This document shows, one piece after another, positions 6,340 to 39,459 of a stretch of DNA of 64,000 bases (the first letter of the stretch is position 1; each line of letters opens with the position of its first letter). Both the position numbers and the translations under genes were made by a program. Source of the DNA: Isoetes taiwanensis (taxonomy: Eukaryota; Streptophyta; Lycopodiopsida; Isoetales; Isoetaceae); contig JAJEKV010000003.1 of the NCBI GenBank assembly GCA_021234155.1, forward strand, positions 32,595,166 to 32,659,165. Direction: 5' to 3'. The notes under the pieces were generated by a model that saw only the letters and a program-made list of their open reading frames with translations, searched no databases and was not told where the DNA came from.

Positions 6340-7480
6340 AGTTGGAGACGTTTTTTTCCTTTCTGCAGATCCAACAGATTTACAGGACATTTGCCAACGG
6401 ACTTACAGCATTCTTACAAGATCCGACAAGGTTTTACAAAGAATTTTCGTCCCTTGAACAGATCTGGCAATAAACCTGCGATTTTTCGACCCTTGAAGAG
6501 ATCTGCTACCTGTGCAGAAGTAAACTACATGCAAACTAGGTCGAAGAGCAGGCATTGGACCGAAGAACAAGGCCATGGCAAGCATTTCTTCTGAAGAATT
6601 GCACGTTGGATTGAAAACAGAGGAAGAACACGCCCATAACGAGCTTCAAAATGCTCTGTTATGGCAACGATGGCAAGCACCGTAAAGAACTGCCGATCTG
6701 TGAAGACTTGGCGATGGCAAGCACTCCGGTCTGGGAAGAACTGGCGATCTGGGAAGAATTGGCGATGGCGGGAATTAGCGGCGACTATAAACCTAAAACA
6801 AAACTTAAGAAATCCCTAACCTGCGCAGCCGGTCAGTCGGAATGCGTGAACCCAAGTTCCATTCCGCGTTATTGGCTGATGCCGCGCGTTGGCACCAAAA
6901 TGCATGCCACTAAAATCAACGGACTCAACTTCTAAATTGATACGGATCACACTAATGATCCATTCTCCAAACTTAAGCAAGTCCACAAAAAATAACATCC
7001 ATTAGGCTTATAACAAGATCATCAAGCAATCGTTATATTGCCATGCATTGCACCCTTTTTTGTTTAGTGTATTATCAGCATGGTACATAGTTGCAGCAAT
7101 TATCACTTATATATTCAGTCCTCTTTTCTGTTTGACACTATTTATTTGAAGCTAATTTGTTTGAAGCATCCGGGTGCTGACACGTATGTGCAACTCAACT
7201 TTTCATTTGTACTTCATTGGTTTGAAGACCCCCTTCCTTGCTCTGCAAGAAATCGCTTGATCTTCCTATTTCTTGCCCTAACCATCATTCAATTAAATTG
7301 GGATTATGTCTTAATTTTGGGACAAATTTCATATTGCATGTTTTTAGTAGCATATTCAAATTCACACATTTCACCTCAAAATTATGAAAACGTAATATCA
7401 TGTTATTTACAAAATAGTCAATATTTCACAATATAGCACCATATCATAAAAACGTGAATAAAAAATTTACATAGTTATTC
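6340..7480. other. Anonymous AT-rich stretch
   Basis: Small frames only. A short internally repetitive frame near 6651-6935 has repeats encoding EELAI/EELAM-type strings. No recognised domain, RNA gene or clear promoter is seen. Confidence 0.5.
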
Positions 7481-7484
7481 AACT

Positions 7485-10340
7485 TTCTTCAAGCACCCCC
7501 AATGATATCATAGCCTTCTTCCTGACATCCTGAGGTATTGTAATTCTCGCATTTCTAGCTGGAATAGTGTTTGGAGTCCATGAGTACAAAACACTTACAT
7601 AGTCTAGCCAAAGATCAGGATCACTCGGATTTCTCCTCCATCTCTTTGTCCAACAATCGAGTACCTTTCTTTTATCCGATCACGTTGGTCAACGATGCCT
7701 TTGGACACCACCATTCCACCCGCACATGGTTGAAGTTAATATTACCTTCTTCTTTGCAAATATCAGAGATAGTGAACCCCAACCACACTATATATGTATC
7801 TAAATCTGTTTGGCTTTACTACCACAAATTGATGGCATTCCAAGTCAGTGGAAGGTTCATAAGCATCCATGCCTAGAAACTTTGGCCTATTGTTCTTAGG
7901 ACCAACATAGTGTTTGCCGAAGGAGGAGGAGCATATTACTTTGCGAATGCTACTTACGGTGTCATCAACATCCTCGGCACACCGCTAAGGTCTTCCACCT
8001 AGTTTTAGGCAACCACCCTTCTTTCAATTCATCCGAGGATGTGTCTATCTCCCCAACGGGTTAATCACCTTCTTCCAAGAAGCCACCAAGGCACGGTTGG
8101 TGTCATCCGGATTGGTTTGCCAATGCTTTATATAGTCCCGGATTCCTTCCTTAGTCAATCCCAATTGCTTCACTTCTTGATGAGGGTTTTAGAGCTTTTT
8201 GGTTGACACGGAGGTATCATAGGCTTGCCATTCTCATCTCTCACGCCATATTTTCTCCCCTCCTCTCCACTCATCCTCTGAAGGTCTCATCTTCCATTGG
8301 AAGATTGGAATCCCATCTCTCACCCAAAAAGTGAACTGCAGAGGCCTGGAATGACCTTCAAGATCCAATGTATAATCATCTACAAAGCTCTTCCAATCGG
8401 GCACTTCTTCTATGAGAGAAGCTATAGGGTTTGAAGCAGTGCATTCATGCAAGATTTCCATTAGCCTAGGAAAGTTGGTCTTTGTCACGCCCAATTATAC
8501 AACTATATTTGCCAAATAATGCATCCACATCCTCATGGGTATGCCCGGGCATAAGAAACCCTAAATTAACTCTTTCAAATATCCCCACAGCTGTTAAGTA
8601 AGATATGAAAGAAAACATCCACATGTTCTTATTTTGGCCAGCACAATTATCAAGTTGCAAGAGAAACCTTTTGGGTAGATCTTGAGGTCTAGCACGTGAA
8701 GTTGAAGCTCCAACATGTTCATTAGACCCATGCTTCCTAAACCTTGCCTTGCTGAACTTTTTAATATTGTTAGGGTTCCCATCTAACAATGCTCTATGTA
8801 GTGCCTGGCTAGCTGTAGGGTTCTGGAGGTGACCATTGTATCCATTTTCATAGTTTCTCAAACACCTCATGATACTCCCAATATGAAAATCTGGACCATC
8901 ACTCCACAACTCCAAACTAAAATGGCCATAGTAGGTTTGAGTTTGCCCATGCAAGATTGCCCCAGTCATTGAGATCTGTAAAGGGTATGATCTTCCACAT
9001 GACTTTCGTATGTACTTGAATTATGGAAGACAAGTCTTTTGCTGGTCCATCTTGTCATGTATAATACATAAATAGTTATTGGGTCCCAATGCAGATAAAG
9101 TCCTCCACATCCAATAACATGATCTACATGATAGTTGGTCAGTCATATGGTCCTTCATATGCTCCCTTCTCCTAGCCCTTTGACTAGGTTGCACAGTCTT
9201 ATCAAGAGTCTTCTTCAACTTAGCACATAAATTGCACTTTGCAAAGTTGTTTGAAGTTGCTATGATGACATGATTGAAATGCTTCTTCCATAACCTACTA
9301 AAGCTAGGTTGGGATATTGGAAGAATTCCCAATTCTCGAAGTAGGGAATTCACTTCTTCCAAAATACTCTTTTGAGTGCAATGTGATGGCAACATTTTCT
9401 CAACAACTGCTCTTCCCTTTTCATCCCTTCTGCTTTTGTGTGGCATAGACTCTGCATTGAAATCAATATATTTTTCAAATATCTCCCTGGCAGCCAAGGT
9501 CCTAGCTGTTGGTCTCAACAAACCATTATTTCCATGTAAAGCAATCCTGTTCCCCTCTGCCTGTTTTTTTTGTCATGCTTTTGCACATATCCATTTGCCT
9601 AGCAAAGGGTATCTTTTTCTGTTTGGGTTTCTTTCATCCTGAAGTGCATGCTCGAAGATTGTGTACATGTAGGTCCTCCTCTCATCAACAGTGTACTCTT
9701 GAAAAGTGGCTCTTGCTTCCACCAATTGTTCTATTGTAAAGAATTGCATACAAGCACTCCAACAACAATCTGAGTCCCTAACCTTCACCATTGTCTCACG
9801 TTTGGTGTCACTAATCAACTTGGCTCTTTTGCTAGGATAATGTCTGGCAACTGATACTTCTCCCCTTTTGCCTAGGTTTAGAGTTCCAACTGCCAATGGA
9901 TCAATATCAAGACAATCATTGTCCCCAACAACCTCAGGCTCTGGAAAAGTATAATCCTCCACAAATTGAACACTACTTATAGGCCATGCCATGATGCAAG
10001 GAACCTCCAATTGCTTGACACAACCAAAACATTCTTTGTCACCCAAACCTTTACCTTTCCAGTTGTCTTCCAACATCGAAATTGCAATACCAATATTGTC
10101 TTCCCCTAGCCTTTCATCATTAATGACTTGACCAGGGATCACGCTAGCACAATGACTCCTTGGCCTACTATTTCCTTGTTGCACTTGTGCATGATTCTCA
10201 TCTTCTTGTTCCTCCATTGCACCCTACTATAGAGGACTAATTGTTTTTCTTCAACATTCTTGCTAGGAGTTGGTTTTTCATTGATATTGCTCTTTTCAAT
10301 ATGTTGCACACCATCTTGAGTTGGAGAGGCACCATTGACC
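7485..10340 (-). pseudogene. Decayed transposon protein with DUF7869-like core
   Basis: One minus-strand reading frame runs from 10217 to 8466, interrupted only by TGA at about 9573 and TAA at about 9021. It then shifts frame near 8490 and continues to 8234, with weaker coding remnants down to 7485. The core reads QLDNCAGQNKN, about 30 residues, then GFLMPGHTHEDVDALFG. I recall that arrangement (LDN … GHTHxDxDxxF) from transposon-derived DUF7869 proteins of plants and animals. A cysteine pair (CNLCAKL) and basic stretches precede it. Both internal stops are one C-to-T change away from CGA and CAA, as expected if methylated DNA decayed by deamination. Remnants upstream to about 10340 are in another frame. 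No terminal repeats were found. A catalytic role as transposase or nuclease is inference. Confidence 0.6.
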
Positions 10341-10563
10341 TAGGCAAATTGCACCCTTTTTAGTCAATGCGTAGGAAAAAATTATTACACCATAAGAGAA
10401 AAAAAGTACGTACATTTATGGAATATCTAGAGGTAAATCAAATTTTTTTAAAAGCAAGAAATTCCTTGGAAATAGGTTTAATATAATAATAACAATGGGT
10501 GTAAACGAAATCATTTAAAACAAGAATTTTCGTGGCAACAACAAGGAAATGACATTTATATAA

Positions 10564-10601
10564 ATATATCCAAATTTTAATTATCGAAAATTTGGATATA
10601 T
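10564..10601. repeat. Perfect 15-bp hairpin upstream of the acidic-protein gene
   Basis: ATATATCCAAATTTT (10564-10578) is exactly complementary to 10587-10601, with an 8-nt loop. It lies about 150 bp upstream of the TATA box at 10751 and might mark an element end or a regulatory site. Confidence 0.6.
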
Positions 10602-10689
10602 GATTACGAAAAGACATATAACTGATAAGGTAGACGTGAGAATTAATTATCCATAATAATATACCCTAGATGATATAGGTGTATGGAAT

Positions 10690-10800
10690 TTAAATGCGCT
10701 GGCGTGTTATTTGAGGCAATCAATAATTCACGCTAATTTCTAATTAACCCTATATAAATCCGGTTCACGCTCTCAAGCTCCATTCCTTCCAATTTTTTTT
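10690..10800 (+). promoter_or_regulatory. Promoter copy 1 with TATA box
   Basis: TATATAAAT at 10751-10759 lies 54 bp upstream of the ATG at 10813. The surrounding block (GGCGTGTTA, GCAATCAAT, TATTTCTAATTA-like, TATATAAATCC, TTCACGCTCTCAA) recurs in the same order at 11873-11990. A degenerate GCGCTGGCGTG at about 10696-10706 corresponds to the better palindrome in the second copy. Confidence 0.55.
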
Positions 10801-10812
10801 TCTCTGCCCGCC

Positions 10813-11133
10813 ATGAAGCGTTTGGCCTCAGCGGCAAATCTTCATGAAGAACCCGAGGTCTCCTCAAAAAGACGTCGGGTTGAAGAACTGCTCCCCCCCT
10901 CCCAAATTGATTTTCTTTCCCAATTCTCCTCTGATTCCTCCTCTGATGAAGAGGAGGAAGAGGAGGAGTTGAGCTCTCAAGAGCACATGACCGCTCTGCT
11001 TCAGGGTTGGCTTGACCAAAAGCGAGAGAATGAAATCTCGGAAGAGTCGCCGTCGTCGTCGGAGGAGGAGGAGGAGGAGGAGGAGGAGGATTCGGAAGAA
11101 GGTCGACAATTCGACCGGTTTTGGAGTGGTTGA
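10813..11133 (+). CDS. Small acidic protein with basic NLS-like motif, unknown family
   Basis: Uninterrupted 106-codon ORF starting CGCCATGAAG, 54 bp downstream of a TATA box. Residues about 18-25 (SSKRRRVEE) look like a nuclear localisation signal. Two runs of Ser and Glu (roughly 39-53 and 78-95) make the protein strongly acidic, and it ends RQFDRFWSG. Such acidic, serine-rich proteins often bind histones or basic proteins, but no family is recognised. The DNA of the Glu runs is GAG/GAA-rich and could be a slippage-prone repeat. The shared promoter with the 11.9 kb unit suggests it belongs to the same element as the ParB-like gene. A spliced 3' exon after about 11230 (TTGTTGCAG) is possible. 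Confidence 0.5.
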   Translation: MKRLASAANLHEEPEVSSKRRRVEELLPPSQIDFLSQFSSDSSSDEEEEEEELSSQEHMTALLQGWLDQKRENEISEESPSSSEEEEEEEEEDSEEGRQFDRFWSG

Positions 11134-11872
11134 GAGATGAACCGGGTTTGCATGTTTGCTTTTTTTTTTTTTTTTTTTTTGCACCTTTCTTTCTTTTCTA
11201 ACACATTTCTTTCTTTCTTCTTTGTTGCAGGGTGGAAGAAGAGTGATCTGAGATCCGGCGGCCCATTTTTTGTTTCCTTTCTTACGAAGTTTTGGACACG
11301 CGGGGGCATTTTTTTTCTCAGAATTGTGTGAAAAGCCTTGCAATTTGCCTAAGCCTTCCTTAAGCATCTGTACATATAAGCTGTTTTTAATGAAATCAAG
11401 CGGTTTTCTTCATAAACTTTGTCTTCAAACAGTTTTCTTCAAAGCCCTTTTTTTTACGTACATAAAAATTTTTTGAATAAAATCAAACTGTATTCTCAAT
11501 TATTTTGGCTCCAATTTGTTTTTCTCTAAAATTTTGTCTCTGCAAATTTTGTCTCTCTAAACTTTTGTCTCTGCAAATTTTGTCTCAACAAAGTCTCGGG
11601 AACACTATAAATCAACCACATGAGAATTCTCTGATTCATCACAGTAACCATAGGAAATTTTCCTATACGACCTAAAACAATTCCCCAACCTTACAAGCCA
11701 TTTTTTAGCCTTGATAATTTTGCCTTTAAAATCATTTTTAATTTAGCCTATATAAAATTTCTAAATTCTATTTTTTTGAATGCAATAAATGGAATAAAAT
11801 GCCGTGAGAATTTATTGCATAAAATGGCAATATTCTCTATATATACCATATACATGTCATGTCTGGCGGGAA

Positions 11873-11990
11873 GATTGTACGCCAGGCGTGTTAATTTAAG
11901 CAATCAATTATTCACACTAACTTATTTCTAATTATGCCTATATAAATCCATTTCACGCTCTCAAAGTTCCTACATTTTCTTCCTTCCTTC
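11873..11990 (+). promoter_or_regulatory. Promoter copy 2 with TATA box and palindrome
   Basis: TATATAAAT at 11939-11947 and the blocks listed for copy 1 are repeated here with roughly 80 percent identity by eye. ACGCCAGGCGTG at 11879-11890 is a nearly complete copy of the palindrome found in the introns downstream. It should drive the transcript whose leader is spliced from 12251 to 12910. Confidence 0.55.
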
Positions 11991-12251
11991 ATACAATTTT
12001 GCGGTTTAACCTCATTGTTTGGATCCGCCCTCCTAAAATCTTGGTGAGCAGATTTATATTCAAACAATATTAGATGTTTGGTTTTGGCAATTAGAACTTA
12101 CTAAAAGACTCGCCTTTTGTTCAGAGCAGCACCGTAGCGAGAGGACATCGGAGGCTCAGAATTAAAACCAAAAGCGGAGGACTAAGGTCTGCGAATCCAA
12201 AAGCCTCGGAATTAAAACCAAAAGCGAATCCTTCCAGCCTCAGAACTCAAG

Positions 12252-12909
12252 GTTAGTTTTCATTTAGTTTTAAGCTGCATCTCAATGGCAGCGTTAATCC
12301 AAGAAGACAAGCTTTTGCATTTGCTCGAGGCAGAGGAAGCAGATGATGTTTATGAAAACCAGAATAGTTTTTATAAACTTCATCTGCTTCTTTTTGTTTC
12401 GAGTACATTCTTGAGTTTCTCTTCGTGAATTAATCATGCTATTGCATGCAAGTTTCTATTATGAATAAGTGTAGTAGAAAGGATTAGAAAAATCTGAAAG
12501 ATAATATTTGAAACACGCTAAGCGTGTTTCATGCTAACCTTAGCCTTCAACATGAATACTGCGCTTCGGCGTGCATTCAGAGAGAGAGAAAAAAAACGCA
12601 TGGATAGATAAGTAAATAGATAAAGGCCAGGCAATTATCTACACACTAATAGATAATTGCCTGGCCTTTATCTATTTACTTATCTATCTGTACAGTTTTT
12701 TTTTTCTCCCTCTCTGCTGAATGCACGCCGAGCGTGTATAGTTTTTCCTATATAGCAGTTTACACGCTGAGCGTGCAAACAATTTTATCCCTACTTTCAA
12801 CTTTCACGCTAAACACGCCGGGCGTGTCTCTTAGTTTCTAAGTTTTTAAATAAATAAATATAACACGCCAGGCGTGAATACTGATACTCCGCTCACTTCC
12901 TATTGATAG
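12252..12909 (+). other. Leader intron carrying palindrome copies and a foldback
   Basis: Donor AAG|GTTAGT at 12251/12252 and acceptor GATAG|ATG at 12909/12910 bracket a 658-bp intron. It contains palindromes of the form ACACGCYNRGCGTGT near 12511-12529, 12723-12737, 12762-12776, 12813-12827 and 12863-12876, plus a degenerate copy at 12562-12573. An unspliced alternative would translate a short ORF from 12285. Confidence 0.5.
12562..12735. repeat. Foldback with perfect 39-bp arms
   Basis: Positions 12603-12641 are exactly complementary to 12650-12688, with an 8-nt loop (CACACTAA). Outside this the arms continue imperfectly through an AG-rich stretch to GGCGTGCATTCAG (left) and its inverse CTGAATGCACGCC (right), so the outer ends coincide with copies of the CACGCC/GGCGTG motif. 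Perfect long arms imply recent formation or maintenance by replication. Confidence 0.8.
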
Positions 12910-13467
12910 ATGCCAAGTTACATTAATCACCCAGTTGGTGACGAAGATGCATTGGAATTACATTTGGGCCAGCAATCACACACCCCAGCTCCAGTTTCGG
13001 CTCCAATCTCCAGTCCGGTTGAACCGCAGCCGAGCACCGGTCCGATTTGGAGCACCGATCTTGCAACCCCCGAGTACTTGGATCAAGTAATGATGATGGG
13101 TATTAGAGCGCCAGGGCAATGATAGATTTGGGCTCTGGGGGCCCTTGCAATCGCACTCGGAGGCTGGCCCTCTTATCTAATCACCGAGAATGCAAGACAT
13201 GCATTGATCGAGAGTGAATCTCGCATGATCCATTTCGAGATTCAAAATGAGGAGCTGCGTTTCTTAGTGGTTAGCCTCTATGCCCGGATGCCCCAACACG
13301 AACCACTACCACAAGGTGATATACGATGCAATGGAGATGGCTCAACCAATGGAACCACTACAAGGCGTTATAACGATGCATTGGAGGTTCAACCAATGGG
13401 GCGGGGAGGTGGAGCAGGGGAGGAGGAGGCGAGGAGGTGGAGGTGGAGCAAAGGGAGGTGGAGCTAG
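12910..13467 (+). pseudogene. Unknown Pro/Gln-rich protein followed by hydrophobic segment, split by two stops
   Basis: The first part (12910-13122) starts with ATG directly at the inferred splice acceptor and encodes 70 residues rich in Pro, Ser and Gln. It ends at TGA-TAG. The same frame then stays open to 13467, beginning IWALGALAIALGGWPSYLI, which could be a membrane segment, then an acidic helix-like part and a Gly/Arg/Glu-rich tail. Either this is two cistrons or one gene broken by stops. No family is recognised. Confidence 0.35.
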
Positions 13468-13538
13468 AGCACGGTGTTTTTGCCGGGTTTTACCCGATCG
13501 GGTTCACTATGCCCGGCCTATGGAAATGGGAGATCGAT

Positions 13539-13563
13539 AGCCCGCCTACTCAATAGGCGGGCT
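13539..13563 (+). terminator. Perfect 10-bp hairpin after the 12.9 kb gene
   Basis: AGCCCGCCTA (13539-13548), loop CTCAA, TAGGCGGGCT (13554-13563). It lies 70 bp after the stop at 13467 and before an AATGAATACAA region. The position suggests a 3'-end signal, but plants do not normally use GC hairpins for this, so the role is open. Confidence 0.4.
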
Positions 13564-13689
13564 TGAAACAAGAGTCCAGGATTTTTGTCCGGTTTATCCG
13601 GTTTATCCAGATTATATACAATTGTAAACTTTTTCCAATGAATACAACAAATTTTGTCTACTTCTATATTTCTACAATGTAATACATGT

Positions 13690-13930
13690 TACATACCTTT
13701 TTAAGCGGTTTCTTGGCCATGCAACAAATGTTCCAACACTTTCATCAACCGTATCCCCCCCGGGGTCTCCGCGAGGTAAAGCTTCATCCATAGCGCAGTT
13801 AGATTAATCATCAGTAACTTGGACATACTTATCCCCGTTTGAATTCCATGACAATTTGCAAATCGGATCGATGGAGTCGATTTGCATAATCCTACTTTCC
13901 TTTTTCGATTTGTAGTTAACATGAAACATT
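13690..13930 (-). pseudogene. DUF8039-like fragment of a plant transposon
   Basis: The minus strand encodes a stretch ending DESVGTFVAWPRNRL, followed by a splice-donor-like AAG|GTATGT at 13697. I recall VGxxVAWP as the hallmark of the DUF8039 module attached to plant En/Spm-type transposons. An in-frame TAA interrupts it upstream, and no transposase core is seen nearby. It is probably a small captured or inserted fragment. Confidence 0.4.
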
Positions 13931-14556
13931 CATCTTCGACAGACTGCAGACAATTGCCTATTCGGACACCTTTCTTTGGAAATTATTGTACAAGCTATAG
14001 GAATGAGATGTTTTGCAGTGCAGAGCCATTCTTGAGAAGCCGATTCGAGTTCTAGAAATCACAGGCGCTATGGAAACGCAGGCGGTCGGGAAAAATTCGA
14101 GTTACAAGAAAGCTTAGGTTAATTACATTTTGGCGGGATAAATGTAATCAATGAAAGAACAAGGTAGATTGGTTTTTAAAAACTCAATGAAAGAAGTCGG
14201 CGGACGGGTTCTTTTTTCTTAGAAAGTGAATCTTCGTCATTATTATTTTTATGTGTCAAGAATATTTCGAAACTGCATTTTGTGTTTTCTTGAAATTCAA
14301 ATTTCCCTCGTGCAGGTAGAAAACGCTATTTCTCTTACAGGTAGAAAAAGTTATTTCTTCGAGCAGCTCGAGTGCGTATCCGAGCGAACCTTCCGACTCT
14401 GTTACTAGGCGACTCCAGAGATGTCTTCTAAAGCGAATCGAGGTCGAGGCGGACGGGGCAGAGGAAGCGGTGGAAGAGGAATCTCAAAACCCGGCTCTTC
14501 TCAAGTTTCAGAGGACGTTGATTAGAATACACAGAATACACAGAACCCTATTCCAG

Positions 14557-15000
14557 GTATTTAATTTGCCACAGAATACACACTGTGTGGAGAGTATTAT
14601 GCTTGCATGAATTTGAGATATTATGTGGAGAGTATTATGCTTTGCATGAGTTTGAGTTATTATGCTTTGCATGAATTTTAAGTATTACCATCAGTTAATG
14701 CTCTGATTGTCCGTTTTGTAGAACATAATTTTGCTCTGTTTTATAGAATATAGCAGTGTTAGACAGTTGGAGATAGCAATGTTCAATGAGGTTAAATAGT
14801 GTGAAATATGGATTCATAAAGGGTATGTATCTTAAAATGTGGATGCAAACTAATTTAGTTTCAAATTCACGCATAGCATGGTCAATAATAGAGCTACCAA
14901 CACGCCATGGCGTGAATTGTACTAATTTAGGTTTAAATGCATGGCCGCGTGATCTCTTGTTACGAAAAGTACTCTAAAAAATGTTCATCTTCTTTTGTAG
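14557..15000 (+). other. Intron 1 of the ParB-like gene
   Basis: Donor CCAG|GTATTT and acceptor TTTTGTAG|TGCCC keep the flanking frame open (…PIP|VPKRKK…). It contains one palindrome copy, ACACGCCATGGCGTGA, near 14900-14915, and short direct repeats of TATGCTTTGCATGA. Confidence 0.5.
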
Positions 15001-16173
15001 TGCCCAAGAGGAAGAAAACCCCTAATAATTCGGGTTCTAATCATGCCAAGAAAGCAAGGGTAGACGACCCAGATGCAGTACCATATGATCTCACCTTAGA
15101 TGATGAAGGGCCGATTCTTATAGCAACCCGACCCTGCCGCCGAAGAGGAAATGGACGAGGGTGCCGAGTGGAATACGTTGATCTTGCCAAGACAAATGGC
15201 AAGCTCGACTTAACTCTCTTCTCGAGGAAAAAGGAAGCAGACAAGATGGCCAAACAAGGGATCCTAATCTCTTGTGAGGAAGAGGATGACACCAACTACA
15301 AATTGCTCTTGGAGATTACACATAAGCAAAAGAAAGATCCTTTCGGACTTACTCCTTTGTAGAGCTACCGCATACAAGGATACGTTCATGAAGACAGATG
15401 TGAGCGGTGAGACATGTTTTAAGTATGGTTGGCCAACCAATGTAGCGATTCGCCAATATTTATTTGCCAAGGGGTTACAAATGCGTAGAGGCATGTTCAC
15501 TAAACCGACGCTGACAAGTCACTATGTGCGCGACAAGCTAGGGAATTAGCGACTTGAAAGCTTCTAGGAGGGTCCTAGATCTAGGGAAGGATGTTCAACC
15601 CGGATTTGTCGAAGGCATGGAGGCTTCGCTTTTTGAGAATGAACAGACAGGGTGGCGCAGCTAGAGGCCATGAACAAGCTGAATAAATACTCTGACCATT
15701 ATCCATTGGGTCTTAAGGAAACTTTTGCGATTCATGTGAAGTCCCTCATCCGTTCACCAAGCTCCATTTATGTTAGCAGAAGATATGATCTAGCACATGC
15801 CATGGAGATTGTTCAGAGCATGATTAGTAATCCAGGTCAAATGCCTATGCCAGCGGATGTGTTACCTTGGGATATGATCTCGAACAAGCCCGCTGAGTGG
15901 ACGAACTTCGAGGACGTAATGTTAAAGGATAACATTAAATTTGTCGTCATCGACGGGCAGCATTCTGTTGAGGCACAGAAGGCCCTCATCAGGCAGGCAG
16001 AACAAACAGGCCAAACCGCGTTCTACAATCACTATGCGTATAGGAGGTGTTGTATCTTGGATGCAATACTTCACCTGCAGATTTGGCTGAGATTAATGCA
16101 ACTTTGAATGAAATAGGGAAGACATTTCTATACAAAAGGTAACTAACTATTAGGATGTTAGCACTTTCATATT

Positions 16174-16478
16174 CACGCCAGGCGTTCATTCAAATGAAAC
16201 CCATTCAGGTCAGGCGTGTATTCCTGTAATGAAACCAAATCACGCCAGGCGTGCTTTCAAATCAAACCAATTCACGCCAGGCGTGAAATGTTAAAGCACG
16301 CCTGGCGTGAATTGGTTTGATTTGAAAGCACGTCTGGCGTGATTTGGTTTCATTACAGGAATACATGCCTGGCGTGTATTCAACCGATTCGAAAGCACGC
16401 CTGACGTGAATTCAACCGATTCGAAAGCACCCCTGGCGTGAATTGCATTGGTATTTAATTCATTTCACGCCAGGCGTG
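16174..16478. repeat. Ten-copy palindrome array (CACGCCAGGCGTG) in an intron
   Basis: Copies, some with one to three changes, start at 16174, 16206, 16241, 16273, 16297, 16329, 16364, 16396, 16428 and 16466. Spacing is 32-38 bp except for 24 bp at the centre. The array is itself a large inverted repeat about 16291, with near-perfect 75-bp arms (16207-16285 against 16297-16376). Each copy is a 13-bp palindrome, usually extended to AATTCACGCC/GGCGTGAATT. The array lies just after the donor AAAAG|GTAACT at 16138/16139, so it is intronic in the ParB-like gene. It is not CRISPR: the spacers are partly repeated and mirror-symmetric. Confidence 0.85.
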
Positions 16479-18571
16479 CTTTGAGGTTGATCTTTTCTAT
16501 TGAAATCGCGCCCGTATTATTTCTTGTCTCGATCTTGATTCAATGCCCGTATTTTTGGCGGTCCATACGTGGAGCAAGCTGCGCCCGCGCCAACAACGAT
16601 GGGTGGAATATGGCTGCCCATTACCCACCGCATGCATGGTCAAAGTCCGAAGCTTTCAAAGGCTTTGGAGCGGACTTCATGCCGGAACAATTATACAGGA
16701 GAAGAAGAAAACTGCAAGAAAATCAAAGAAAAAGGGTGGTGACGACATTGCAGATCCTTCTGAAAGCTCATCTAGCAGGTCAGGCCCAACAGACTCGTAT
16801 AATATTGTGTTTTATAAGGACGCAGTATGGCAAAAGTGGAATGAATTCGGGACGCTTATGCACAAGGGAAGTCGCCGATACTATGGGTAGGATGCCTCCT
16901 CGTTGATGTAAGCATCTTTGACTTGAATGTGACAGAGATGAGAAAGACTCGAGAGGCTAGACGACGCCGGAGACCATTTGGGTTTTAGACCGGTGCTTAA
17001 AGAAGGAAGTCTTATACAAGAAGAGTGCTTTCACTAAGGATAGGATGTCCTTCGTTGAGTGCTGCAGACCATGTGAAGGATGTACGTACAATGAAGTCAG
17101 CTGTAGGAGCTGAGTTACAAAGGCTATCGGAGGATGTGGCATTATCTCGAAATTGGATTCTTTGGACAAATACAAGGTCAAGTAATGATGACATCAAGAA
17201 GTTTGTATTCTGGTCAAAGGACTTCCTAAAGAATTGGAAGGCTAAAAATACAAACATAAGGAGACTCTACCCCTAAGGTACTTGGCCGAGTTGAGAAGAA
17301 AAAGTGGCCCTTGTGAAGAAGATTCTTCGAGAAGACGACGCTGTCCAATATTCAGTCTCCATTGGGTACAAAGGTCTCTTGCCAGAATCAACTTCTGGCC
17401 TTAAAAATATATCACTCTCTGTGTTGGACAACAGGGGTGGGAGAGGAGATATGGCGAAGGACTACAAGCCTTCTTTACCGGTTTGTATAGGATTGACAAC
17501 CGAGAGGTCCTTCACTATTGTCATCGTTTGTCCTTCGGGTGAGTCACATCTGCATGCACTATCTGGCCGCTCATGATCCGGAGTGCCTCAAAGTTATTAG
17601 GGAGGGATGCCTAATATATGATGTTAAGGATAACGAAGCAAAAACGTAAGCGGAAGATGGCACATGTGATCTTTATTATGATAGCCATGCTGTCAGACGA
17701 GGAATATGATATTGCTAAGGCCAAGGGTGACAATAGCAGTGCATGGGAATGTTTTCTTCTAGATGATCCAGACTTAAGAACTATATTCTATCATACGGAT
17801 CAGGATCAGTCAGAACAGGATGAGTCAGAAGAGGATGAGGATCGGGACCCCCTCCTAAGTGGGGAAATCAAGTACGAGCTACAAACTAAGGAGAAGGGCC
17901 CCTTAAATAAAAATGGATTTCCCCCGTCTATGGCTGCTTACCTCGTCGAGGCATTTGCTCCAATTGATAACCTGCTTGGAGCTTCATGTTGGAGGTTATA
18001 TTGCCCGAGAAGCTCTTATGGGTGTTAGAAGATGTCACTGCTTTGTGAGTGATGAGCAGACCAAAGACTTTCTTGAACCATTCCTCATGCATGTGCTTGC
18101 CAAATCTCCTAAAGGCCCTTATGGCAACCTGAAATCATCAGCAATCAAAAGTCTCGTAGACTTGTCCAATTCGAAAGTGGACGATGCTTCTAGTGAGGGA
18201 ACTAGTAATCCGCAGCCTGATAAGGAAAGCAATAATGAACAAATAGCTGCTAAAGTGACAGCTCAAAGTACTGTGATCGCGGCTGGCTTGGGGAATATCT
18301 TTGCCACCCTTCAGGGTGATGCAAGCAACAATAGAGTAGATTCACAGGTTAACAATGAACTAATTGACAGGGAAACCGAAACTGAAGGCAACCAAGGCGG
18401 CTCTAGTGATTCACAGGTTTGACAAATCAATAGTAAAATAATGTCAGTTGTGAAAGACGCAGCGGAACTAATAGAAAATAACAATTCTAAAAAAATGAAG
18501 AAAGGCGAAGATTAAGGGTGGCGAAGGGGAGAATGACGCTGGACCACGACAAAATAAACCGAAGATGATAG

Positions 18572-18743
18572 GTATGGCCTTGCCCACGAAATCGCGCCAC
18601 GCGTGATTTAATTTGTATTACCTTTGAATTAAATCGCGCCAGGCGTGCTTTGATTTGGTTAAGACTATCTCAAATCACGCTTTGGCGTTTGTATTGTTTG
18701 TGTTATCGTATCTTTGCTGTGGGATACTTGTTTGATGTTTCAG
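18572..18743 (+). other. Intron with three further palindrome copies
   Basis: Donor GATAG|GTATGG at 18571/18572 and acceptor TTTCAG|CTTG at 18743/18744 define a 172-bp intron. Variants CGCGCCACGCGTG, CGCGCCAGGCGTG and CACGCTTTGGCGTT lie near 18593, 18634 and 18676, about 41 bp apart. Confidence 0.5.
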
Positions 18744-19378
18744 CTTGCATTGCGTTTCTAAGAAGGTTGTGGTGTTCGACCTAAGCGGAGTTCTTTGCAA
18801 GACTTTTCCGAAAAATAAAGTGGCTAGAGATCGGTTTCATCGGACACCGAAGAGAATCAAACACCAAGTGGATCTATCCGGGCCGCACTTGAAGGAGATG
18901 CTAAATGAGGCATTCAGGTTATTTCGAGTTGGTATTTGGTCATCCATGAACTAAGGAACATCAAGGATACTTTGGAGGCACCGGGGAAATCGTAGACATT
19001 GGTTGACCTTTTGGGATCGGAACAAATGTGTGAAGTTCACTAATCCCAAGGATCCAACGAGCAAAGCCTATCTTCATCAAACACTTGAGTAACATGATGG
19101 ACGAACTTGGTATCGAGAATAAGGATGATATAATCATAGTGGATGATGATGCTCTCAAATGCTTCTACAATCAAACGCAGGCCCTAAATCCACTATCTTA
19201 CTATCCAAAAAACTTTGCGACAGATGATTTTCTGGTGAAATTTGTGTCTATTATGCATAATTTGGCTATGGGGATGACGGTGGGTGAAGTGTTAGATTCA
19301 TACCCAGAACTGGATAGAACGGCTGGCATGGAACCACACCTTGTTAAACACGTGGAAAAACATGGATTGATCCCTTAA
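18744..19378 (+). pseudogene. FCP1/NIF-like HAD phosphatase domain, frameshifted
   Basis: The segment reads KKVVVFDLSGVLCKTF (HAD motif I, of the DLNG/DLSG subtype seen in some plant FCP1-like proteins, where the second Asp of DxD is lost). Then come GPHLKEMLNEAFRLFRVGIWSS (motif II serine), KPIFIKHLSNMM (motif III lysine) and DDIIIVDDDALKC (motif IV aspartates). This is the NIF/FCP1 order for a CTD-phosphatase-like fold. A stop at 18952 and at least two frame changes before 19085 interrupt it; the last block, 19085-19378, is open to TAA. Loss of the second catalytic Asp suggests a non-standard or absent phosphatase activity. It follows the ParB-like gene through a good intron, so it may be its C-terminal domain or the next gene. 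Confidence 0.6.
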
Positions 19379-19380
19379 TG

Positions 19381-20830
19381 TTTTATTGGAATATATGATA
19401 TTTTTGTATGAATTGTGCCATGTATCGATAATTTCGAGTCTGGAATTGCCTCGCAAATAATGCAATCTGTTATTATCAAACCTAATATTATCATCTAAAT
19501 GCTCTTCAATTTTGGTCTCATCTATGTTAGCAACTTGCTCTTCATTTTTGCATATTTCAATTCGCATATGAAACGTCACACGTGAATCGCAGCCTTGTGT
19601 TATTTTTGAAGTCCAAAAAAAAAGATTAAAAAAAACAAAAACCCCTAGAAGACAACAGCAGGTTGGCGTGATTTTGGAGTTGACATAATCCCAATTTAAT
19701 TGGATGACGGTTCCCTACAATCAATCCAATCCCATCCCATGTTGGGAGCGAGGCGCGCCCTGCAAGCAATCCCTGGATTGGCTCTTTGCTGCAAGCATTC
19801 CCTCGGTTTGGCTCCTTGCAAGGACAAATAAAGATGTCTCTCTGCCTGATGTAGGAGGTTCTTCCCATAAACAAATATGCGCCCTTTTTGAAGCAGGTCG
19901 CAGCTTTCTATTGTGGTTTCCGGCCCTTGCCTTTTAAGCGGCTTCCTACTTGCAAAGTGCTGGAAAGGTCACCACCGGATGCTCCAAGCTCGGCTCCTGG
20001 AGGGATTTTCTGTTTCGATCTAGGTAATATACTTTTTTAGAGAAGGCTTTACTACCTGGACTGTGCAAGCAAAAACTTAAGAACGTATTAGTGTTTCAAG
20101 CAGTCCCCACCGAAATTCTTTTGATTTTCAGCCATTGTGTCCCTTAATCTTTGCATTACAATGGATGGAGCCATAAATCCCCTGTACCACATGAATAGAT
20201 CGAGCCACAAAGAGTCTGTTGGAACAGACTAAGAAACAGGGGAGAAGCATTTGTTATAGAAGCTAATCCATTTTTTGCGAACAAGTTAACAAGTGGAGGG
20301 CATCGAAGCTAAAGCTCCAGTAAACACTCGTCCTTTTGTTCAACTCTGTTTTAGCCTGAGTTCTTTAAGAAACTTGGTTACCGTTTTAAGATTTCGTATA
20401 AGCAAATTCCTTTCGGTTATCAAGGCTGCATTGATAACATGCTAATGCTACATAAAACAAAGGAGGGTATTTTTAGTCTTTGATTTAGGAACATAAAGAA
20501 GTTTACTTGCATTTAAGTCTAGACTAGCAAGGATATGTTCATCGGTTCATTTTTCTATACACGAGTTCCATATTTACCCTGCAGTCCTTACCACTTAATC
20601 TTCATATTATGGGAGTCTGTCTATTAGCTTGGACATGGAAATGATCTATTACATGATAAGTTGCCTAACATCTGACGTGCGAGTTGACATTATTCTAGTG
20701 ACTAGATGTTCAATGTCTTAAGGTGCTTATCTCATGTCTGTAATGCAGACTACAACTATTCAGTATGGTATCTATGACAAGAAACCAACAATGCCAGTAA
20801 GGAAGAAAAAGTACAATCATGGATTGTGCA
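19381..20830. other. Anonymous stretch between the ParB-like block and the DUS pseudogene
   Basis: Contains A-rich tracts near 19612-19645, one GGCGTGATTTT near 19664, and mostly AT-rich sequence that may include introns of the DUS gene. No coding motif is recognised. Confidence 0.45.
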
Positions 20831-37627: not shown

Positions 37628-37756
37628 TGTAATAAACCTGTTTGGCATGTTTGGATCAGCTCTTGATCTGCAGTTCCCAAAGAAGCATCTATGTAATAAA
37701 CCTGTTTGGCATGTTTGGATCAGCTCTTGATCTGCAGTTCCCAAAGAAGCATCTAC
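37628..37756. repeat. Tandem duplication, 64-bp period
   Basis: TGTAATAAACCTGTTTGGCA starts at 37628 and 37692; the copies are essentially identical through GAAGCATCTA. Confidence 0.9.
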
Positions 37757-37860
37757 AGACTGTGACTCTGATGTACTGCCTGCTTCCAAACTGTACTCAT
37801 TTTTCACAATGCTTTGCTTTTTCTTCATTCTTCAGATCTCCTTGTACCTGGAATGCTGAC

Positions 37861-37956
37861 TTCCTTGCTGGTTTTGTCCTTCATATCTGTTTAGTGATTG
37901 CACTTTTTTCCTTGCTGGTTTTGTCCTTCATATCTGTTTAGTGATTGCACTTTTTT
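37861..37956. repeat. Tandem duplication, about 47-bp period
   Basis: TTCCTTGCTGGTTTTGTCC through TGATTGCACTTTTTT is present twice in a row without visible changes. Confidence 0.9.
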
Positions 37957-38441
37957 CTTTAATTGTCTTTCCCTTCTGCAATCATTTCCATTCACAAGGC
38001 AAACAAAAAGAAAAAACTAAGTGGTTTAACCAAGTTCTTATACTTGAAAATCATTGAGGCAGATTTGTACTTTAAATCATAACAATTGGGATATTTTCTC
38101 TCCTCTCTTTTTAGCGAATATATATAACTAGTTGTGATCCCCACCCTTTGCAAGAAATTTGCTACGAATAATGCAGTTGTCATCGTCTCCTGACAAAAGA
38201 AAGAGGAGTACACTTGAAGTTCTTCTCCTTTTTTTTGCTTTACAATTTGGGCCCAAAATCTTCCTAGATAAGTTAGGGTTGTGCACTTTCACCTTAGAAT
38301 TAAGTTTTACTAAATAAATAATATGGGATCTAATGATTGTAAGTTCTATTATTCTAAAAGAGTTATCTTGCAATGGGAACATTATGGTACATCTTGCAAT
38401 GTGGTGATAGAGACTAATTTTGAACTCAGACTTTTCAAATG

Positions 38442-38653: not shown

Positions 38654-38698
38654 TTGTTGCTGTTGCACCATGGTTGTTAGAATTTCAATTTTAATTAT

Positions 38699-39459
38699 CT
38701 TAGACATCTTGTACTTCCAAATGTACTTGGACTCCACATGGACTGCTTAACATGGCATGCCACATGGACTACTGACATGGCATGGCATAACACGTGTTTG
38801 ATGACTTGGCTCATTGAATGCTGGCATGGACTGCCACAGAGACCCCCACCCCCCCCAAAAAAAAAAAAAAACTTATACTTGTCCAGAGCACCATGGGTGT
38901 TATAAAGTCAATTTTTGAATTGTGACATCTTGGGCAAGCACCATATCTTAGACATCTTGTACTTCCAAATGTACTTGGACTCCACATGGATCAAGCTTAC
39001 CCATGGATCGCCACATGGACTCTTGACATGACATGGCATAACACGTGTTTGATGACTTGGCTCATTGAATTTGGCATGGACCGCCACATAGACTACCAAA
39101 AAAAAAAAAAAAAAAAAAACTTATACTTGTCCAGAGCACCATGGGTGTTATAAAGTCAATTTTTGAATTGTGACATCTTGGGCAAGCACCATATCTTAGA
39201 CATCTTGTACTTCCAAATGTACTTGGACTCCACATGGACTGCTTACATGGACTGCCACATGGACTACTGACATGACATGGCATAACACGTGTTTGATGAC
39301 TTGGCATGGACTGCCACATAGACCCAAAAAAAAAAAAAAAAAACTTATACTTGTCCACATGGCATGACGTGTATGATGACATGGTAAGATGATGTGGCAC
39401 ATGCATTTTGATACACATGGCATGACGTGTATGATGACATGGTAAGATGATGTGGCACA
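38699..39459. repeat. Three-unit 248-bp tandem array with A-tracts, plus a two-unit 54-bp tail
   Basis: Units begin TTAGACATCTTGTACTTCC at about 38699, 38948 and 39196. Each holds many CATGG-containing repeats and a poly-A tract of about 15-20. At 39356-39459 a CATGACGTGTATGATGACATGG block is present twice. Frames that read Cys/His-rich peptides across the array are artefacts of the repeat. Confidence 0.85.

Follow-up and report, generated by a model that had tools for sequence, protein, structure and literature searches.

Does the broken plus-strand gene at positions 14421-19378 of this stretch, whose introns carry repeated palindromes, belong to a selfish element that holds both a ParB-like protein and its own sites? 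We asked this of a 64,000-nucleotide window of the quillwort Isoetes taiwanensis genome (contig JAJEKV010000003.1, forward-strand positions 32,595,166 to 32,659,165), where a first-pass annotation had proposed such an element from a DGQHS block resembling ParB, a methylase-like block, an FCP1-like HAD domain, and palindromes in three introns. On comparison with other genomic copies of the gene, the region resolved into a unit with sharp ends on both sides: the gene is the plus-strand gene of a terminal inverted repeat (TIR) DNA transposon family of about 12.4 kb. The original observation was thus confirmed as part of a larger element, and its interpretation was partly supported. The element, its ends, and the gene are laid out as follows.

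7280..19712, 12,433 bp: whole transposon copy, subfamily A, delimited by alignment with other copies, TIRs, and target site duplication (TSD)
7276..7279 and 19713-19716: left and right copies of the TSD, CCCT (computed)
7280..7310, plus strand: left TIR, AACCATCATTCAATTAAATTGGGATTATGTC, 31 bp, beginning AACC
19682..19712, minus strand: right TIR, two mismatches relative to the left TIR
14421..14556, plus strand: exon 1, Gly/Arg-rich gene start, splice donor CAG/GTATTT
15001..16138, plus strand: exon 2, ParB/DndB-like DGQHS domain, frameshifted in the window copy
16139..16561, plus strand: intron 2, inverted-repeat array holding ten sites ~32 bp apart
16562..18571, plus strand: broken exon 3 without a Pfam family, its C-terminal stretch showing marginal similarity to N6/N4 methyltransferases
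18572..18743, plus strand: intron 3, sites at 18593-18605 and 18635-18647 and a remnant near 18675
18744..19378, plus strand: exon 4, FCP1/NIF-like HAD domain, DLSGVL in the window

The left end was set by alignment to copies L007, L008, L010, and L012, and the right end by alignment to L007, L009, L010, L011, L015, and L008; the right end of L012 itself was not located by alignment. Flanks of other copies gave the TSDs AATA (L007), AATT (L010), and ACAA (L008), and a 4-bp TSD, AAGA, was computed for L044, a full copy of a second subfamily, B. TIRs and TSDs in independent copies identify the family as a TIR DNA transposon. A genome search with the gene, in which the best 150 of 3,633 candidate matches were scored, returned some stop-free open frames of ~400 amino acids. 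The window copy is decayed, as the first-pass annotation had stated, with a frameshifted exon 2 and a broken exon 3, and copies differ by ~10%. Subfamily B proteins are ~47% (exon 2, L044) and ~53-56% (exon 3) identical to those of subfamily A, yet introns 2 and 3 occupy identical positions in both, and L044 has long open frames across exons 2, 3, and 4. In a copy of a third subfamily, C (L043 and its upstream piece L301), the plus-strand gene, the sites, and the right TIR are kept. Upstream of L007 (piece L017), a 461-amino-acid open frame that by eye resembles a Ty3/gypsy-type reverse transcriptase and RNase H abuts the left end, so this copy probably inserted into a long terminal repeat element.

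The palindromes commonly take the form CRCGC-N3-GCGYG, of which CACGCCAGGCGTG and CGCGCCAGGCGCG are examples, and all three introns carry them as had been claimed: one in intron 1, ten in intron 2, and about three in intron 3. The five upstream sites (11878-12876), a degenerate promoter site, and a half-site at the TIR were additions to that account, as was the whole element. Sites other than those of intron 3 are listed here.

10694..10706: degenerate site ~50 bp upstream of the TATA box (10751) of promoter P1, better kept in L010 and L008
11878..11890: site TACGCCAGGCGTG, ~55 bp upstream of the TATA box (11939) of promoter P2
12514..12876: four sites in the 5' non-coding region, at 12514, 12724, 12814, and 12864
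14901..14951: intron 1 sites, CACGCCATGGCGTG at 14901 with a 4-base spacer and a decayed CACGCCAAGCGTG near 14940
16174-16478: the ten sites of intron 2
19665..19670, plus strand: half-site GGCGTG just inside the right inverted repeat

The window held 31 strand-wise matches to the motif at two or fewer mismatches, against 0.41 expected, and none of 100 shuffles reached 31. Across 21 copies or pieces we counted 172 sites with a spacer of three, against at most five at any other spacer from 0 to 8, a Markov mean of 0.08, and zero for direct and everted arrangements; the copies are related, and four C pieces (L291-L294) were chosen for holding sites, so these counts are not independent. Coding matches account for 32% of the sequence in the copies examined, and none of the 166 sites there overlapped one (exon 3 coverage in this count rests on the B3 query). 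Of five full-length regions of subfamily A, four have the TATA promoter P1 and all five have P2, and an intact or decayed site lies 50-55 bp upstream of these promoters. The 5' non-coding region with four sites is possibly a 5' untranslated region intron. The CACGCCAAGCGTG site of intron 1, decayed in the window, is present in relatives, and an inner variant, CC-A-AGCG, is common to the intron 1 sites of A and B. Every located right end carries a half-site, GGCGTG in seven A and two C copies and GGCGCG in three B copies; the pattern that listed right ends required GGCGYG and so would miss copies that had lost it, and the ends placed by alignment all carry it.

The sites differ between subfamilies in a symmetrical way. 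In subfamily A, 104 of 126 sites are symmetrical CACGC/GCGTG and 22 are mixed, whereas in subfamily B 30 of 31 are symmetrical CGCGC/GCGCG with a single mixed one; the 15 sites of subfamily C comprise five of A type, one of B type, and nine mixed. Both outer bases have thus changed together, in arrays that occupy the same introns in A and B, although synonymous sites between these subfamilies are saturated and their second introns do not align beyond the palindromes and a few adjoining bases. Over the assembly of 1,658,258,908 bases, the exact A-type sequence CACGCCAGGCGTG occurred 1,771 times (858 + 913; reversed-pattern control, 0/1) and the B-type variant CGCGCCWGGCGCG 1,639 times (control, 1/1). 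The assembly also gave four matches to LEAFY-type genes, which mark the host as a land plant. The first 12 A-site clusters listed all fell inside element copies, of which eight were A-like and four C-like. The exact site lay within an aligned stretch longer than 150 bp in 11 of them and between collinear aligned stretches in the other (L292). B-type sites stand to either side of an exon-3 match on contig C139, as far from it as introns 2 and 3 lie in L044. The centre of the sites at 16174-16478 is CCWGG, and each site also holds CG dinucleotides. CCWGG is a CHG (CWG) context as well as a Dcm-type methylation context, and binding at the sites could be methylation-sensitive.

Purifying selection has long acted on the plus-strand product. 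The ratio of nonsynonymous to synonymous substitution rates (dN/dS) was 0.045 between L044 and L047 (synonymous divergence, dS, 2.4) and 0.19-0.21 between A lineages (dS near 0.7). Closer pairs gave 0.35 to 0.81, as expected when copies decay after insertion.

What this protein might be was approached by profile comparison. When 13 exon-2 proteins drawn from subfamilies A, B, and C were compared with Pfam, DndB was the most frequent family (11 of 13, best E 1e-4, under the cutoff). A genome-wide run of the DndB model yielded 25 scored matches, the best at E 0.24, and all but one fell at profile positions 37-127; of these 24, at least 12 are exon 2 of the element family, ten coinciding with exon-2 places, one (L047) read directly, and one adjoining an exon-3 match. 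The DGQHS motif stands in 11 of 13 aligned rows, with EGQHS in L033 and the L043 row stopping short of it; the canonical DGQHR pentapeptide (PF14072) is absent, as S replaces R. Against 63 phage ParB-like proteins, hhalign aligned exon 2 at a probability of 93.8% and a score of 55.4, above all 60 shuffles that kept the DGQH block (mean 37.4, maximum 43.7), while against six DndB-like proteins the score was 41.1, reached by one of 60 shuffles; the 63 proteins were picked for an IDGQHR motif, and the ParB-like and DndB-like labels are our own. PHROGs matched L007 exon 2 to one family alone, a ParB-like partition family, without significance (E 0.068), and gave L047 exon 2 three other weak matches, none of them ParB. 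Scans of viral contigs and genome contigs and a phage tblastn returned no relatives of the domain, PDB searches with single proteins and profiles no credible match, and NCBIfam no match for exons 2 and 3. The similarity is weak but reproducible, and the DGQHS domain is probably homologous to ParB/DndB.

The other two domains of the earlier proposal fared unequally. Exon 3, with a product of ~600 amino acids, could be aligned near its end, in register, to the C-terminal portion of a set of 103 phage N6/N4 methyltransferases, scoring 27.8 at a probability of 13%, with none of 100 shuffles as high (maximum 23.7). This comparison was a second try and must be discounted accordingly, an earlier one with four methyltransferases having scored 18.5, inside its shuffles (mean 14.9, maximum 24.4, n = 40). 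Pfam and PDB searches gave no methyltransferase match for exon 3, and the DPPY and FxGxG/FxGSG motifs are replaced by a DSR-type motif (DVR in L009) and ELHVGGYIG, so that a methyltransferase, if this is one, is predicted to be inactive; the methylase claim is marginal, and the middle region of the protein may be a degenerate methyltransferase. The VLDLGKDVQPAVVEG stretch of exon 2, considered as a different candidate for the methylase block, was rejected because subfamily B lacks it. The FCP1-like HAD claim held up: PF03031 (NIF/FCP1 HAD) matched exon 4 of L009 at 32.6 bits (E 7.9e-8, cutoff 21.8), with the two exon-4 pieces of the window below the cutoff at 19.3 and 17.9 bits, and NCBIfam gave exon 4 a weak HAD match plus two weak unrelated ones. 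HAD phosphatases carry the signature DxDx(T/V); here it reads DLNGVL in L007, L016, and L044 and DLSGVL in the window, which makes phosphatase activity doubtful.

The element carries a second recognised gene on the opposite strand.

7480..10223 (lower limit approximate), minus strand: broken transposase-like gene, open frames, DUF7869 in the corresponding gene of L012

The window open frame at 8469-9020 contains the block LDNCAGQNKN...GHTHEDVDA. DUF7869 (PF25273) matched the minus-strand gene of L012 (piece L020) at E 1.3e-33, in a scan of this counterpart copy rather than of the window frames, and in the full B copy tblastn matched the gene with main stretches at 35-86% identity. Pfam lists DUF7869 without a function; the gene is likely the transposase of the element. 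Two small plus-strand open reading frames, at 10813-11130 and 12910-13130, encode an acidic protein with a KRRR run and a Pro/Gln-rich protein, respectively. These frames (P1 and P2) are partly kept among A copies, and neither the B copy nor the C copy matched them, which leaves the two recognised genes common to A and B, and hence the plus-strand protein and the transposase, as candidates for a factor acting at the sites.

We propose that the sites are targets of a dimeric, element-encoded protein through which the element would recognise its own DNA, a reading we hold tentatively, at somewhat less than even probability. A dyad of fixed spacing, set in ~32-bp steps and with halves that change together with subfamily, is what such a protein would be expected to select. 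The plus-strand product is the favoured candidate, since the sites crowd its own introns, since the C copy keeps this gene and the sites with no transposase match found, and since its possible relative DndB binds palindromes in its own promoter. Clustering of the protein on the arrays would set expression of the element, through relief of host silencing, autoregulation, or both, with an effect restricted to the element's own subfamily. The anatomy, the non-coding placement of the sites, their symmetrical change across subfamilies, and the constraint on the protein are established; binding, the identity of the binder, and an effect on silencing or transcription are what we infer from them.

Several results weigh against this proposal. 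Even with 10 kb of upstream sequence (L301), the C copy L043 showed no left TIR and no transposase match, and the two-gene plan is therefore established for A and B only. Neither the full B copy nor the C copy showed the arrangement of sites at P1 and P2. The best DndB scores, 19.2 bits in L047 and 19.8 genome-wide, lie under the gathering cutoff of 29.1, and with the DGQH block masked hhalign found no signal to ParB-like proteins, for which reason homology is probable but unproven; the ParB claim stands as far as a recurrent similarity that depends on this block. The half-site beside the TIR could point to the transposase instead. Intron 2 folded far better than its shuffles in all 17 copies (minimum free energy z -5.8 to -33.6; 20 shuffles each, six intron ends guessed), and a symmetrical change in a short palindrome is also expected of a small RNA hairpin.

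The strongest of the alternatives, though unlikely, is that the DUF7869 transposase or a host transcription factor binds the sites and the ParB-like protein does something else. CACTA elements, with their subterminal motif arrays, offer a parallel, and both the subfamily-typed half-site adjoining the right TIR in the 12 located right ends and the sites upstream of the A promoters would suit such a binder, as would the fact that the transposase-like gene is the other gene common to A and B. Yet the left terminal 45 bp hold no matching half-site, the majority of sites sit inside introns of the ParB-like gene, thousands of bases away from the ends, the full B copy has none in its transposase region, and the C copy retains its sites with no transposase match found; a change of specificity subfamily by subfamily is, moreover, not expected of a host factor. 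Next in rank, also unlikely but a serious rival, is selection on RNA, with the intron 2 hairpin taking part in splicing or giving rise to small RNAs and the 13-bp sites serving as short stems. Besides the strong folding z-scores (intron 2: -24.7 in the window, -23.7 in L044, -22.6 in L015, and -7.6 in L016), stems of at least 22 occur in both A and B despite unrelated spacers, and the symmetrical outer-base change preserves a 5-bp stem with a 3-base loop. This account meets difficulty in the sites that lie upstream of the A TATA boxes, at the right end (as a half-site), and singly or in pairs in introns 1 and 3; since some stand outside introns, RNA pairing cannot account for all of them. Five copies (L007, L011, and L016 of subfamily A, L042 and L043 of subfamily C) retain sites even though their longest stems reach just 15-17, and the orientation of the array differs among copies. 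The arms of intron 2 in the window are near-perfect over ~75 bp (16206-16380; stem run of 77) despite the decay of this copy and the ~10% divergence among copies, which suggests recent homogenisation of the arms.

Two further accounts are far less probable. Loading of the ParB-like protein at the sites in the manner of parS, followed by spreading or sliding along the element, would fit the ParB-type similarity and the clustered palindromes, but a chromosomally integrated transposon needs no partition, and no ParA family appeared among the part of the element's frames that was scanned with Pfam; we consider this very improbable. Least probable of all is that the arrays are functionless by-products of tandem and inverted duplication. 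The 32-bp tandem period and the inverted arms are what duplication would leave, but it would not explain why the same introns keep sites over saturated divergence, why the change is symmetrical at nearly all B sites, or why the spacer is fixed at three.

For the proposed self-recognition by an element-encoded dimer, the closest working parallel appears to be VANC-type self-recognition rather than plasmid partition, and anti-silencing in the quillwort is a prediction by analogy. In two studies of Arabidopsis VANDAL elements, arrays of a short motif allow a protein of the transposon to relieve silencing of elements of the same family (PMC5735166; PMC10398659), and VANC21 motif arrays, which lie within VANC21 and VANB21 introns and upstream of VANA21, diverge with subfamily (PMC5735166). 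As described there, VANDAL21 and VANDAL6 resemble the quillwort element in having short-motif arrays in non-coding regions, introns included, that grow as tandem repeats and diverge with subfamily (PMC5735166; PMC10398659); VANC21 motifs, in contrast to the palindromic quillwort sites, are described as arrayed in the same orientation (PMC5735166). The quillwort element thus has the subfamily-specific non-coding motif arrays that mark VANC/VANDAL systems, and it differs from VANDALs in its 31-bp TIRs, 4-bp TSDs, DUF7869 gene, and ParB/DndB-like protein with a HAD domain. VANDALs are Mutator-like elements; Pfam scans found no Mutator-type transposase domain and no domain typical of VANC, with no direct sequence comparison to VANC made.

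DndB-type operator binding would be the biochemical parallel. In Salmonella, the promoter of DndB contains TACG-N10-CGTA palindromes to which DndB itself binds (PMC4507180). Like DndB/DGQHR proteins (PF14072), the quillwort gene combines a DGQH-type domain with palindromes near promoters of the same unit; unlike them, it has S for the R of DGQHR, scores under the Pfam cutoff, resides in a eukaryotic transposon, and has mostly intronic sites. Its ParB-like then methyltransferase-like order recalls the ParB-methyltransferase fusions of phages and bacteria (such proteins were seen by eye in phage loci L061, L125, and L166), from which it differs in lacking catalytic motifs, in the marginal similarity, and in the extra HAD domain. 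That HAD domain resembles the FCP1/SCP-type (NIF) phosphatases in its above-cutoff PF03031 match in L009 and departs from them where DLNGVL (window DLSGVL) replaces the signature. An evolutionary scenario can be drawn from these comparisons, though as a whole we consider it rather unlikely: the transposon would have taken in a prokaryote- or phage-type ParB-methyltransferase fusion, lost catalysis, added the HAD domain, and become a dimeric self-recognition factor with an evolving site code in introns, promoters, and one end, an independent VANC-like invention on the ParB fold.

The first-pass proposal of a selfish element carrying a ParB/DndB-like protein together with its own palindromes is borne out to the extent that some ParB similarity appears by profile and that less decayed relatives keep the palindromes in their introns. 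No description of a ParB-bearing plant transposon was found among the open-access papers listed by our searches. Sequence-specific self-recognition by a plant transposon is documented, in the studies cited here, for the Arabidopsis VANDALs (PMC5735166; PMC10398659); if our reading is correct, the quillwort element would be a second case, in a distant plant, with unrelated proteins and symmetrical base switching, and would indicate that such systems arise repeatedly. It would also offer a ready test of joint change in a protein and thousands of its sites. For the ParB-type fold, of which sulfiredoxin is given as the commonest eukaryotic representative (PMC12704722), it would mean an additional eukaryotic role, in a transposon.

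Some minor features of the element and the window may be added. DUF7869 had 9,908 first-look candidates genome-wide, and the best 150, which were scored, were all above the cutoff, so the transposase-like family seems hugely expanded in this genome; no mention of DUF7869 was found in the open-access papers best matching our search. The 5' non-coding region contains an inverted repeat with near-perfect arms of ~40 bp (...gataaaggccaggcaattatct..., 12598-12690) that by eye resembles a miniature inverted-repeat transposable element or a hairpin. Tandem arrays of 248-bp, 64-bp, and 47-bp units lie elsewhere in the window, at 38696-39305 and 37628-37957.

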